In this document: piece after piece, positions 55,100 through 59,061 of the stretch
Position numbering within the stretch: the first letter of the stretch is position 1
Layout of the letters: the number at the start of each line of letters is the position of its first letter
The notes under the pieces: generated by a model
Seen by the model: the letters and a program-made list of their open reading frames with translations, nothing else
Databases searched by the model: none
Told to the model about the DNA's origin: nothing
Source: Luteibacter aegosomatissinici
Lineage (GTDB): Bacteria; Pseudomonadota; Gammaproteobacteria; Xanthomonadales; Rhodanobacteraceae
Assembly: GCF_023078495.1 (NCBI RefSeq)
Contig: NZ_CP095742.1
Location: forward strand, 3,968,001-4,032,000
Reading direction: 5' to 3'
Length of the DNA: 64,000 nt
Position numbers and translations under genes: made by a program

Positions 55100-55930
55100 A
55101 TGCGTGCAACCAAGATCACCATTCTGCTCGTCCTCGCCTTGTCGATGAGCGCCTGCTCGATGTTCCGCAGCAAAAAGGAGACGATCGACACCATGCCGAT
55201 CGACCGGCTCTACGCGAACGCACACGATTCGCTGGAGCATGCCGACTATGCGGCGGCCGAGAAGGCCTACCAGCGCCTCATCGCGCGCTTCCCTTCTGGC
55301 GATATCAACGAACAGTCGCAGATCGAACTGGCTTACGCGCAGTACAAAGACAACAAGCCGGATGACGCGTACTCGACGATTAACCGCTTCATCAAGACGT
55401 TCCCGACCCACAAGCATGCAGATTATGCCTATTACCTGCGCGGTCTGATCAATTTTGATCGCACCTCCGGGTTCCTGGAGCGCTATCTGCAGCGTGGCGA
55501 CGATACCGGCGCCACCCGCCGCGACCAGGGTTTCAACCTGACGGCGTTCGACGATTTCAGCCAGCTGACCCGTCGTTACCCGAACAGCGCTTACGCCACG
55601 GATGCCCGCCAGCGCATGATTTACCTGCGTAACCAGCTGGCACAGTTCGAAATTCACGTCGCCGAGTACTACCTGCGCACCAAGTCGTACATCGCCTCGG
55701 CCGATCGCGCCCAGTACGTGGTCGAGCATTACCAGCAGTCGCCGCAGACGGCCGATGCGCTGGCGATCCTCACGCGCAGCTACCTGGCGCTGGACCGCAA
55801 GCCGCTGGCCGACCAGACCCGCCAGGTGCTGGCCCTGAACTACCCGGACCACCCCTACCTCACGGACCCGAACTGGCCGCACCACCCGTCGATCTGGCGC
55901 AAGGCCATCCCGTTCTCGGGGCACCATTAA
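55100..55930 (+). CDS. bamD: Outer membrane assembly lipoprotein BamD
   Basis: A 276-residue essential component of the BAM complex. Lipoprotein signal ITILLVLALSMSAC with the lipidated Cys, then five TPR-like helical pairs (RLYANAHDSLEHADYAAAEK, YPNSAYATDARQRMIYLRNQ). The C terminus is complete. The ATG at MRATKI is the natural start; the longer frame is antisense to rluD. A terminator follows. Confidence 0.95.
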   Translation: MRATKITILLVLALSMSACSMFRSKKETIDTMPIDRLYANAHDSLEHADYAAAEKAYQRLIARFPSGDINEQSQIELAYAQYKDNKPDDAYSTINRFIKTFPTHKHADYAYYLRGLINFDRTSGFLERYLQRGDDTGATRRDQGFNLTAFDDFSQLTRRYPNSAYATDARQRMIYLRNQLAQFEIHVAEYYLRTKSYIASADRAQYVVEHYQQSPQTADALAILTRSYLALDRKPLADQTRQVLALNYPDHPYLTDPNWPHHPSIWRKAIPFSGHH

Positions 55931-55931
55931 G

Positions 55932-55960
55932 AAAAAAGCCGGCGCAAGCCGGCTTTTTTT
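55932..55960 (+). terminator. Rho-independent terminator of bamD
   Basis: GCCGGC-GCAA-GCCGGC followed by seven T, starting right after the bamD stop. The A-run on the other side would make it function bidirectionally. Confidence 0.95.
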
Positions 55961-56002
55961 GTGTTTGGCGTGCTGAGGTGAGGCAGCATCGCGCCACGTG
56001 GT

Positions 56003-56202
56003 CGGTTCATTCGCTGGCGCAAATGCATGTGTTGAGCGGCGTTCGCCGCCTCAGGCTTGAGTGGTTGAGGAAGCTGCGGGTGGGCAGGCCCTTGGGGCCG
56101 CCAGACGCGGACCTTCGGACCGGGCCGTAGCTCCCGTGTCGCCAGAGTCGTCGCGCTCGGCGGCCCTCCACTAATGTCGGCCCCAAGGGCCTGCCCACCC
56201 GC
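56003..56202 (+). repeat. Left copy of structured 200-bp inverted repeat
   Basis: Starts CGGTTCATTCGCTGGCGC, then a small GCGGC-N4-GCCGC hairpin, then a perfect 25-bp stem whose arms are at 56076-56100 and 56178-56202 around a 77-nt core containing CCAGACGCGGACCTTCGGAC. The 78-nt remainder to the next gene end shows nothing recognisable. Confidence 0.9.
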
Positions 56203-56280
56203 GCCCCCAGCGATGAGGTTCGTGGTGGAAGAGCTCGGGATGTGCGGCTCAGTGGTCCAGTTGTCGGCCGTTGAGTTGAT

Positions 56281-56700
56281 CTAGCGATTGTCGCCCGCGT
56301 CATAGATGTCCAGCGCCAGCTCAATGCCACGCTGCCCCAGCGCCAGCAAAGAAGCGGGCGTGAGCGACATCCCATCGTTGCTGGTCGCCATGAACAGTCC
56401 GCAGAACAGATCTACCCGATACCGCTGCCCGATGTCTGCCCAGACATCAAGGTCAGCAGTGAGTTTGCCGAGGATTTCCTCAATTTGCCCATTCAGGTCT
56501 TCGGGTTCACGACGTTCTGCCTGCAAGTGCCATGAGCCCGTTCGGGCGATTCGCACCTGGCCCGTTGAGCGGCCGTGGATTTCCTCGCCTTTGTACGCAG
56601 CTTGCGTGGCCTCGCATCCAAGCAGCAGAGTGATTTCGACAGGGCGGAGCGCGTCGCCAAAGATGCGCAATGAAACACGTGAATGTCCGATACACCCCAT
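56281..56700 (-). CDS. DUF4279 domain-containing protein
   Basis: About 139 residues from MGCIGHSRVSLRIFGDALRP, resembling DUF4279: an N-terminal beta-strand start (SRVSLRIFG), PVEITLLLGCEATQAAYKGE, a Trp in GSWHLQAERREPEDLN and the LFMATSNDGMSLTPASLLALG region. DUF4279 proteins are small cytosolic proteins, often beside toxin or immunity genes; function unknown. The start is uncertain: ATGs at 56730 and 56700 and a TTG at 56754 are all possible, none with a clear ribosome site. Directly downstream of the DUF6968-like gene on the same strand. Confidence 0.6.
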   Translation of the reverse strand: MGCIGHSRVSLRIFGDALRPVEITLLLGCEATQAAYKGEEIHGRSTGQVRIARTGSWHLQAERREPEDLNGQIEEILGKLTADLDVWADIGQRYRVDLFCGLFMATSNDGMSLTPASLLALGQRGIELALDIYDAGDNR

Positions 56701-56713
56701 CTGCCACCCAATC

Positions 56714-57046
56714 TCAACGAAGCGAAGCATCAGAACCAACGCCGATTTTTCCAAGCCACGTCAACCGACCGGCTTGCGTTTCGGGGCGGGTCTCCAGATA
56801 GACGGATGCGATGTCGATACACAGGATCAAGGCTTGAATGGCGTCGACACCGCTGGCGTAACGAACTCGCTCATCGCCGTAGCCCTTCAACTGGAAGGGA
56901 CAGTAATAATTGACGCCATCAGAGAAGGGCCGGGGTATGCCGATCAAAAGGCTGATCTCGCGACCGTCCAACTCCAAGGTCCTTGACGCAATGATCCGAC
57001 CGAGCTCAATAGGCTCTTCGCTACCCACAGGCACCCCCTCCCGCAT
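56714..57046 (-). CDS. DUF6968 family protein
   Basis: A 110-residue protein resembling DUF6968: IIASRTLELDGREISLLIGIP, YYCPFQLKGYGDERVRYASGVDAIQALILCIDIA. Small, soluble, no signal peptide; function unknown. The ATG is chosen, but GGGAGGGG lies inside the first codons, so a GTG six codons later (57028) may be the real start. Forms a likely two-gene unit with the DUF4279-like gene inside the inverted-repeat cassette; a 200-nt stretch upstream without recognised signals precedes it. Confidence 0.55.
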   Translation of the reverse strand: MREGVPVGSEEPIELGRIIASRTLELDGREISLLIGIPRPFSDGVNYYCPFQLKGYGDERVRYASGVDAIQALILCIDIASVYLETRPETQAGRLTWLGKIGVGSDASLR

Positions 57047-57243
57047 TCTCGTGGACAGATACGAACACCGCCGGATGGTAGAGCTGAATGTCGCGGCCGT
57101 CTGTAGGCAATGCCTGACCCGATGAACCAGCTACGCGTGCGCTGCCGCGCACCGGCGTCGCTCTTCGAGCACATCAGCCCTGGGAGCGGGGCCGGTCATT
57201 GCGGCTTGAGGCGTGTGCTACACGCTGCGAGGCGTACCGACTC

Positions 57244-57442
57244 GCGGGCGGTGAGGCCCTTGCGGCCGACATTAGCGGAGGGCCGCTCTGCACAACGATT
57301 GTCGCGACAACGGAGCTACGGCCCGGTCCGAAGGTCCGCGTCTGGCGGCCGCAAGGGCCTCACCGTCCCCGACCCCAACGGGCCCCCAGCCTAAGGCGGC
57401 GCGAGCCGCTCAACACATGCATTCGCGCCAGCGAATGAACCG
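57244..57442 (-). repeat. Right copy of structured 200-bp inverted repeat
   Basis: Reverse-complement relative of the left copy. Its stem arms (57249-57268 and 57346-57365) are 20-bp perfect around a 77-nt core of the same length; arm bases differ from the left copy but pair within each copy. The GCGGC-N4-GCCGC hairpin and terminal CGGTTCATTCGCTGGCGC are kept. Confidence 0.9.
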
Positions 57443-57444
57443 AT

Positions 57445-59061
57445 TTAGCGCCAGCCGGAGGTGATCGGGTAGCGGCGTTCGCGACCAAAGGCCTTTGTTG
57501 TGACGCGCGGCCCCGGCGCCGCCTGGCGGCGTTTGAACTCGTTGATGTAGACGAGGCGGATCACCCGGCGGACCGTGGCGTCGTCGTAGCCGGCCGCGAT
57601 GATGTCTTCCGCGGAGGCCTCACCCTCAATGAAATGCTGGAGGATCGCATCGAGTTCATCGTACGGAGGCAGCGAATCCTGGTCGGTCTGGTCGTGGCGC
57701 AGCTCCGCCGAGGGCGGGCGCTCGATCACCGCTTCGGGAATACCGCCATCGATCGCCGCGCGGTAGCGCGACAGGTTGTACACCACCGTCTTGTAGACAT
57801 CCTTCAGCGGCGCGTAGGCGCCACACATATCGCCGTACAACGTGGCATAGCCCACCGCCATCTCGCTCTTGTTGCCGGTGGAAAGCAGCAGGCGGCCGGT
57901 CTTGTTCGACATGGCCATCAGCAGCACGCCGCGTGAGCGCGACTGCAGGTTCTCCTCGGTGATATCCGGCTTGCGGCCTTCAAACACAGGGGCGAGCGTG
58001 CCGGTAAACGCCTCGTAGATCCCTTCGATCGGCAGCACGTGGTATTCGACGCCGAGATGCTCGGCCTGCGCCTTGGCCTCACGCAGCGAAAGATCCGACG
58101 TGTACTTCGTCGGCATCATCACCGCGGTGACCTTGTCCTTGCCCAGCGCGTCCACCGCCATCACCAGTGTGAGCGCCGAGTCGATACCGCCGGAAAGACC
58201 CAGCAGCACGCCATCGAAGTGGTTCTTGCCGACGTAATCGCGGATGCCACGGACGATGCCGTCGTACATCACGGCCTCGGCGCTACGGGTATCCGGTGCG
58301 GGCCAGTCCAACGCCTTCAGCTGCTTCGTGGCGCTGTCGTATTCCACGCCCAGCAAAAGGTCTTCGAAGAACGGCGCACGGGCGGCGATGCTGCCATCCG
58401 GCTGGACCAGCAGCGAGTGGCCGTCGAACAGCAGGTCATCCTGGCCACCGACGAGATTCACATAGGCGATGGCGACACCGTTCTCCGTTGCGCGCTGCTG
58501 CAGCAGCGCTTCGCGCGTGGCGGCCTGGCGCTGGTCATAGGGCGAGGCATTGATCACCAGGATCAGCTCCGCACCGGCATCCGCGGCATGCGCCGCCGGT
58601 TCCGCTTCCCAGATGTCCTCGCACACCAGCATGCCGACGCGGACGCCTTCGATGCTGAAGACGTGGGTCTGCTCGCCGGCACGGAAGTAGCGCTTCTCGT
58701 CGAACACCGTGTAATTCGGTAGCGCCTGCTTATGGTAGGTCCACTCGACCTTGCCATCGCGAATCAGCGAGGCGGCGTTATAGACCTCGCCCTGGCTGTC
58801 CGGGTAGCCCACGATCGCGGCGATGCCCTTCAGGTCCGGCGCCAGCGCCTCGAGTTCGCGGCTGCAGGCCTGGAGGAAGCTCGGCCGCTGGAGCAGGTCT
58901 TCCGGCGGGTAGCCGGAGAGGGTCAGCTCCGGGAAAGCGACCAGACTGGCGCCGAGGCGGTCACGCGCTTCAGCGGCAAGGGCCCGTACCCGGCGCGCGT
59001 TGTCGGCGGTCGCGCCGACGGGGAAATCGTGCTGGGCCAGGGCGAAGCGAAAGGTGGACAT
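57445..59061 (-). CDS. nadE: Glutamine-dependent NAD+ synthetase
   Basis: A 538-residue enzyme amidating nicotinic acid adenine dinucleotide to NAD+. The N-terminal nitrilase-like glutaminase domain has ELTLSGYPPEDLL, the catalytic Lys in the YHKQALPNY segment and the nucleophile Cys in GMLVCEDIWE. The C-terminal synthetase domain has GLSGGIDSALTL and LLSTGNKSEMAVGY. MSTFRFALAQHDFPVG is taken as the start from alignment, with GGA upstream; the longer frame is shadow. Its stop lies next to the right terminal repeat of the cassette. Confidence 0.95.
   Translation of the reverse strand: MSTFRFALAQHDFPVGATADNARRVRALAAEARDRLGASLVAFPELTLSGYPPEDLLQRPSFLQACSRELEALAPDLKGIAAIVGYPDSQGEVYNAASLIRDGKVEWTYHKQALPNYTVFDEKRYFRAGEQTHVFSIEGVRVGMLVCEDIWEAEPAAHAADAGAELILVINASPYDQRQAATREALLQQRATENGVAIAYVNLVGGQDDLLFDGHSLLVQPDGSIAARAPFFEDLLLGVEYDSATKQLKALDWPAPDTRSAEAVMYDGIVRGIRDYVGKNHFDGVLLGLSGGIDSALTLVMAVDALGKDKVTAVMMPTKYTSDLSLREAKAQAEHLGVEYHVLPIEGIYEAFTGTLAPVFEGRKPDITEENLQSRSRGVLLMAMSNKTGRLLLSTGNKSEMAVGYATLYGDMCGAYAPLKDVYKTVVYNLSRYRAAIDGGIPEAVIERPPSAELRHDQTDQDSLPPYDELDAILQHFIEGEASAEDIIAAGYDDATVRRVIRLVYINEFKRRQAAPGPRVTTKAFGRERRYPITSGWR

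Follow-up and report, generated by a model that had tools for sequence, protein, structure and literature searches.

REP-type repeats are usually regarded as short non-coding parasites, and MITEs that carry passenger genes as non-autonomous elements bounded by terminal inverted repeats. In the available parts of their descriptions, REPINs are REP doublets that form hairpins and are moved by RAYTs, with 71 and 110 bp as the commonest spacings (PMC3116915), and some GTAG/CGTC REP dimers are inserted within longer palindromes (PMC3733652). Mobile insertion cassettes (MIC or mic), as far as the accessible text of their report goes, combine inverted ends of 24 bp with a passenger gene and contain no transposase (PMC3913671). 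Here we describe an element of related layout in a 64,000-nt stretch of the Luteibacter aegosomatissinici chromosome (hereafter the window), in which two long inverted arms enclose two genes between bamD and nadE. This element is dispersed, polymorphic between species, structured and unit-like, and it holds genes in some of its loops.

The element between bamD and nadE

A preliminary description of this DNA had placed reverse-complement arms at 56003-56202 and 57244-57442, and both are present: a repeat search recovered segments of 118 nt (86% complementarity) and 56 nt (91%), and BLAST aligned arm with arm at 81.9% over 204 nt (197 bits, E 6e-54), compared with a median of 22.9 bits for 60 controls in which flanks of different loci were paired (maximum 123 for a single pair, next 34.6). 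Because similarity to other copies extends ~40 nt further inward on both sides, each arm is taken to be ~240 nt long. The left arm (56003..56246, + strand) is composed of a terminal hairpin end T (56003..56072, +, located by pattern search and alignment of ends), a ~130-nt palindromic core, and a Y-type inner edge, while the right arm (57204..57442, - strand) is composed of an X-type inner edge, the core, and a second T end (57373..57442, -, located by repeat search, pattern search, and alignment of ends); the labels A, B, X, Y, and T used throughout are names coined in this analysis. End T reads CGGTTCATTCGC-nnnn-GCAAATG..., followed by a hairpin AGCGGC..GCCGCC. The hairpin folding typical of REPINs is found here as well, the left arm having a predicted fold as single-stranded DNA with a z of -3.35 and the two arms being 80% alike as inverted copies. 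No match of the element to a known structured RNA was obtained from Rfam at E up to 0.1, and neither a sigma-70-type promoter nor a terminator was found in a search of 55900-57500. The right end had been described as touching the nadE stop, and the stop codon indeed starts 3 bp past 57442. On the bamD side, the ~20 nt outside 56003 (55983..56002) are similar to the equivalent position in L039, the other family-A pair of the genome, when flanks are compared by eye, and may constitute the true outer end; no such extension was seen on the nadE side in the same comparison.

The loop insert (~950 bp, 56247..57203, limits approximate, as judged from comparison with the interiors of 48 other paired elements) contains two complete ORFs on the - strand that overlap by 41 nt, namely a DUF4279 gene (56281..56754, a 157-aa ORF with a TTG start as listed, the true start being possibly further in; PF14106, E 1.3e-17) and a DUF6968 gene (56714..57046, 110 aa; PF22302, E 1e-17). 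Pfam thus confirms the identity of the two enclosed genes as proposed earlier; neither protein had a match in NCBIfam or PADLOC searches. Two further points of the preliminary description also hold, in that no transposase was recognised inside the element and that its interior is less GC-rich than its surroundings (0.591 versus a window mean of 0.652, an equally low value being reached by 0.8% of 957-bp windows). No second copy of either DUF gene was found in this genome, and any movement of this cargo is hence hypothetical.

The same site was surveyed in 22 congeners, in 21 of which nadE lies no more than 1.5 kb from bamD sequence (spacing of 37 bp in G008 and 28 bp in G021). Neither a family-A arm-profile match nor a cargo match was found at the nadE locus of any of the 22, so that the order bamD-cassette-nadE is not invariant, a possibility that the preliminary description had raised against its own reading. 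Two congeners, G007 (L061) and G013 (L063), instead contain ~1 kb palindromes of other sequence at this site, with arms of 330 and 291 nt, and G017 (L070) has palindrome arms of 140 nt, while a 278-aa ORF with no inverted repeats lies between bamD and nadE in G004. The region between bamD and nadE appears to be an insertion hotspot for palindromes.

A dispersed family of paired hairpin ends

In the host genome (G000; 4.99 Mb, single contig), a DNA search with the left arm returned 46 matches, and the terminal hairpin pattern with <=3 mismatches returned 45 (24 forward and 21 reverse), compared with 0 for a reversed-pattern control. Across 32 ends that we chose for alignment, 31 columns are invariant. 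These matches define 22 loci, i.e. the window locus and 21 others, with four pattern loci left out (three short palindromes and one weak single match). Inward-facing pairs of ~70-nt hairpin ends make up 20 of the 22, and single arms the remaining two (L031 and L040), so that an inverted pair of palindromic units is the usual layout, as in REPINs. Short palindromes GGTTCATTCGCnnnnGCGAATGAACC, with 11-bp perfect arms and a 4-nt loop, were observed at genome positions 661676, 892029, and 2334387, and may represent scars of the ends or minimal versions of them. Elements are mostly 0.3-1.1 kb in length and usually without a long gene, a few measuring 272-330 bp; the window element spans ~1.4 kb and L148, in L. 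yeojuensis, 2.7 kb.

Left-arm matches were obtained in 13 of 23 Luteibacter genomes, and the short end pattern with <=1 mismatch in 8 of 147 sampled genomes of the bacterial family. Among GTDB representatives, in a scan from which records close to the window's own genome were possibly omitted, the exact longer form of the end was detected in 27 stretches, all from Luteibacter records (L. yeojuensis, L. jiangsuensis, and Luteibacter sp. SG786). Those of L. jiangsuensis and SG786 are single ends, and the surrounding DNA examined contains no matching end in inverted orientation.

Two sub-families share the ~70-nt ends. Family A, which includes the window element and L039 in G000, nine pairs in G001, one in G008, and five in G022 (the genome holding the L. 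yeojuensis stretch L148 at 100%), has 197-nt arms to which inner edges of ~40 nt are added, for a length of 514-750 bp, the window element excepted. Family B displays an outer ~30-nt extension at most ends, a different palindromic core, and a loop that holds GTAG-type repeats, for a usual length of 0.65-1.1 kb. Within family A, all 12 pairs from G000, G001, and G008 combine one X and one Y arm, with mean arm identities of 81% for XX, 85% for YY, and 77% for XY comparisons. The window element follows the same scheme, with a Y edge on the left and an X edge on the right: nine of the ten nearest neighbours of its left arm are Y arms (83-86%), the tenth being the single X arm L031 (84%), and those of its right arm are X arms in ten cases out of ten (83-88%), values to be compared with the 80% between its own two arms. 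This Y/X pairing indicates an ordinary family-A element in which the centre of the loop was replaced or split by ~950 bp, and a chance pairing of repeats around the two genes was rejected on this test. The X/Y rule is not general, since all five family-A pairs of L. yeojuensis are X/X.

Polymorphism was assessed for eight other elements by joining their flanks, with the 35 nt beside each end omitted, and searching for them in four relatives (G001, G002, G008, and G022), gaps being given as the distance that separates the matches of the left and right flanks. L043 is absent from all four relatives (continuous in G001 and G008, with gaps of 140 bp in G022 and 170 bp in G002), L042 from three (continuous in G001, 13 bp in G008, 8 bp in G022, and a single flank only in G002), and L050 from two (continuous in G008 and G022, 219 bp in G002, and ~1 kb in G001). 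The L045 site is continuous in G002 and has gaps of 113 bp in G022 and ~1 kb in G001 and G008, while that of L048 shows 139 bp in G022, 151 bp in G002, and ~7 kb in G008, with the left flank only in G001. Gaps at the L035 site are 209 bp in G022 and 2.0-2.6 kb in G008 and G001, with one flank only in G002, and no flank of L039 was found among the matches listed for the four relatives. At the L044 site, the gap is 117 bp in G002 and 1.8-2.4 kb in G001, G008, and G022; in the latter three, varying content lies beside a single detected hairpin end, including a 388-aa ORF in G022, and L044 itself is an element without long genes in this genome.

Junctions with empty sites are ragged. The empty sites with precise junctions sought by the preliminary description were thus found in part, empty sites existing both at the nadE locus and for other copies, and precise junctions not being found. 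No direct repeat of at least 3 bp was detected at the CGGTTC ends of 49 pairs, 46 of which are informative (L242 and L243 have no right flank and L236 no true left end), compared with 0.5 expected, and 2-bp direct repeats were observed seven times compared with 7.0 expected. The target-site duplication that is a feature of mobile insertion cassettes is therefore not seen in these elements.

Genes within the loops

Interior runs of >500 nt with no match elsewhere were identified in 4 of the 49 pairs: the window element (953 nt, unmatched in any of the 48 other paired elements compared), L148 (2192 nt), L156 (689 nt), and L236 (819 nt). The last two were rejected as cargo elements. One limit of L236 is a lone core, and its content includes a split IS110 transposase; IS110-family transposase ORFs were also observed inside or beside palindromic elements at L037 and L038. 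Since such transposases and GTAG repeats are found in other loops, loops appear to accept inserts. The content of L156, on the other hand, is native. In L. yeojuensis SU11 contig 28 (L156:3806-4666), exoD is enclosed by two inverted 69-nt ends and has corC- and trmJ-like genes as neighbours, and the gene has the opposite orientation and the same neighbours in five relatives (G000, G001, G002, G008, and G018), at whose exoD loci no such end was found among the matches listed; for G003, no exoD was found among the matches listed. Relative to these five, the segment enclosed by the ends is thus in inverted orientation in L. yeojuensis, and genes located between ends need not be imported cargo.

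At L148:40-2700 (L. yeojuensis SU11 contig 43), family-B-like arms of ~210-240 nt surround 2.2 kb encoding a DUF4365 protein and a 386-aa protein, which match the PADLOC models PDC-M02A (E 8e-56) and PDC-M02B (E 2e-104) and represent a candidate phage-defence pair. The right flank of L148 is present in six of six relatives and the left flank in five (not in G018), and the two adjoin directly in G008 and lie 8 bp apart in G001, 78 bp apart in G002, and 708 bp apart in G003; G000 has the left block in inverted orientation at a distance of 212 bp. No match to the PDC-M02 cargo was obtained by blastn or tblastx at the loci of the six relatives. GTAG-type repeats occur around the ends of L148, which in turn lie between two paired GTGGGAGC-type repeats, so that palindromes are nested at this locus. 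In the window's own genome (L365, 3820400-3826300), the block of genes to the left of the PDC-M02 site has the opposite orientation to that in L. yeojuensis, G001, G002, and G003, and neither family-A arms nor inverted repeats were found around it.

A 43-aa ORF, hydrophobic by eye, lies inside seven G000 elements (L032, L037, L046, L048, L049, L050, and L051), an eighth match in the same genome being outside elements. Peptide-gene matches fall inside detected pairs in two of four cases in G001 (the two others lying beside one detected end), inside pairs in three of four cases in G022, and within a family-A-like loop (L311) in one of three cases in G017; further matches occur in G008 and G018. 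Across the bacterial family, 116 of 230 genomes have relatives of the peptide (E up to 0.01), mostly outside such pairs where tested. The pN/pS ratio is 0.23 among the seven G000 copies, and reading that DNA in the two remaining forward frames gives 2.24 and 1.52. For sets of three copies it is 0.15 in G001 and 0.58 in G022, purifying selection being weaker in the latter, and comparisons between genomes give 0.47-0.56. The peptide is likely under selection, with the qualification that copies are paralogues of one genome and non-independent. No Pfam or NCBIfam match was obtained among the copies scanned (two peptides for NCBIfam). An inverted-repeat test around the ORF at 30 loci was strong at L335 only and weaker at L333; it spanned ~0.9 kb on each side, dealt for the most part with genes located outside elements, and did not detect L331, a locus within pair L037. 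This small-protein gene has multiplied together with its element. Similar ends hence bound different cargo, as the preliminary description had suggested looking for, with PDC-M02A/B in L. yeojuensis and the 43-aa peptide gene in seven copies.

Origin of the element and relation to known systems

Taken together, these observations make it probable that the window contains a complete REPIN-like, non-autonomous family-A element in whose loop the DUF6968-DUF4279 pair was captured. Such an element would move in single-stranded form, folded into a hairpin and cleaved by a trans-acting enzyme, most likely a Y1/HUH transposase of the RAYT kind, which would fit both the hairpin ends and the absent target duplication. 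DNA entering the loop would leave the ends intact and could thus travel as cargo, the DUF6968-DUF4279 pair being one such captured module. The single Y1 transposase found in G000 (L052) was rejected as the cognate RAYT because it accompanies GTAG-type repeats, located upstream, and no end-pattern match lies nearby; a cognate RAYT flanked by the same REP, as in REPINs, was thus not found in G000. From the preliminary reading of a non-autonomous mobile or amplifiable cargo cassette, we therefore retain a repeat element devoid of transposase. A dedicated cargo cassette is not supported, since most copies are without a long gene, and amplification is not seen, the DUF cargo being single-copy in this genome.

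The order of events could also have been different, an element without cargo having settled first in the bamD-nadE interval and illegitimate recombination having later brought the two-gene segment into its loop, in which case the element would be a passive landing site with which the cargo never moved. We consider this rather unlikely, even if several observations are in line with it. The DUF genes are single-copy, and each is an accessory gene scattered across the bacterial family, with 8 and 27 carriers among 233 genomes when this one is counted. No long flanking repeat was found at 35 other DUF6968/DUF4279 loci, where the best candidate is 38 nt at 38 bits while one of the 60 control pairings reached 123 bits, so that conservation of this cargo together with its repeats was not found in relatives. 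The GTAG repeats and IS110 transposases of other loops, and fillings of the bamD-nadE site that differ across the genus, including the large palindromes of G007 and G013, point in the same direction. Later entry nevertheless leaves unexplained why a small-protein gene multiplied with its element, although this concerns other copies. A much more improbable scenario is that the arms are the ends of an unseen DDE insertion sequence around passengers moved by its transposase, i.e. a mobile insertion cassette: inverted ends, passenger genes, and no transposase do reproduce the layout given in the available text of PMC3913671, but ~240-nt arms with internal palindromes are unlike the 24-bp ends given there, no target duplication was found, and the only transposase ORFs recognised in the 49 pairs (from ORFs listed or measured, and in part Pfam-scanned) are of the IS110 family. 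Least credible of all is a coincidence in which two repeats inserted independently on either side of two ordinary genes. Single arms do exist (L031, L040, and others), and the exoD pair of L. yeojuensis surrounds a native gene, but 20 of 22 loci are paired inward and the arms of the window element are complementary Y and X.

Beyond the window, we tentatively put forward a broader proposal, which we regard as somewhat doubtful in its full extent. The palindromic repeats of Luteibacter could be gene-carrying REPINs, with mobility signals in their ~240-nt arms, whose loops would take up whole operons (accessory DUF pairs, a candidate phage-defence pair, and a small-peptide gene) and spread them between intergenic sites, and which might also flip chromosomal genes caught between ends. 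Since genes of other kinds are present in some copies, the repeats may mobilise genes while encoding no mobility enzyme of their own. If loops carry selected genes and candidate defence modules, they would represent an overlooked route for the transfer of small operons, one missed by transposase-based annotation, and the nested-arm design together with the exoD case opens the way to direct tests of how hairpin repeats contribute to the capture and inversion of genes.

The preliminary description had considered the element to be of an unrecognisable type, a view that we revise, as it is close to REPINs, though larger, nested, and gene-bearing in some copies; within the accessible part of the open-licence literature, we found no description of gene-bearing REPINs or of these Luteibacter repeats. 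Judged against the available portion of the REPIN report (PMC3116915), the shared characters are inverted short palindromic units, a predicted hairpin, dispersal across the genome, the lack of an internal transposase, and an intergenic position where inspected. The Luteibacter elements differ in their size of 0.3-1.4 kb (2.7 kb for L148), mostly 0.5-1.1 kb, which exceeds both the 71 and 110 bp spacings and a range of tens to a few hundred bp, as well as in their two-module arms, the protein-coding content of some loops, and the lack of a RAYT found beside the ends in G000. With GTAG/CGTC REP dimers, as presented in the accessible part of PMC3733652, they share nested palindromes and GTAG-type repeats, here within loops, whereas their terminal unit starts with CGGTTC and loop genes were not found described for the dimers in that text. 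As for MICs, the window element resembles them in function, with inverted ends and passenger genes but no transposase, and departs from what the available text of PMC3913671 describes in its very long, structured arms, with no parent insertion sequence or target duplication found. MITEs are likewise non-autonomous and bounded by terminal inverted repeats, and the same differences set the Luteibacter elements apart from them, while an integron gene cassette has a single attC per gene and sits in an array beside an integron integrase, unlike an element with two inverted arms. Since it departs in a tested feature from both REPINs and MICs, we classify the element as a REPIN-like variant rather than as a member of either group.
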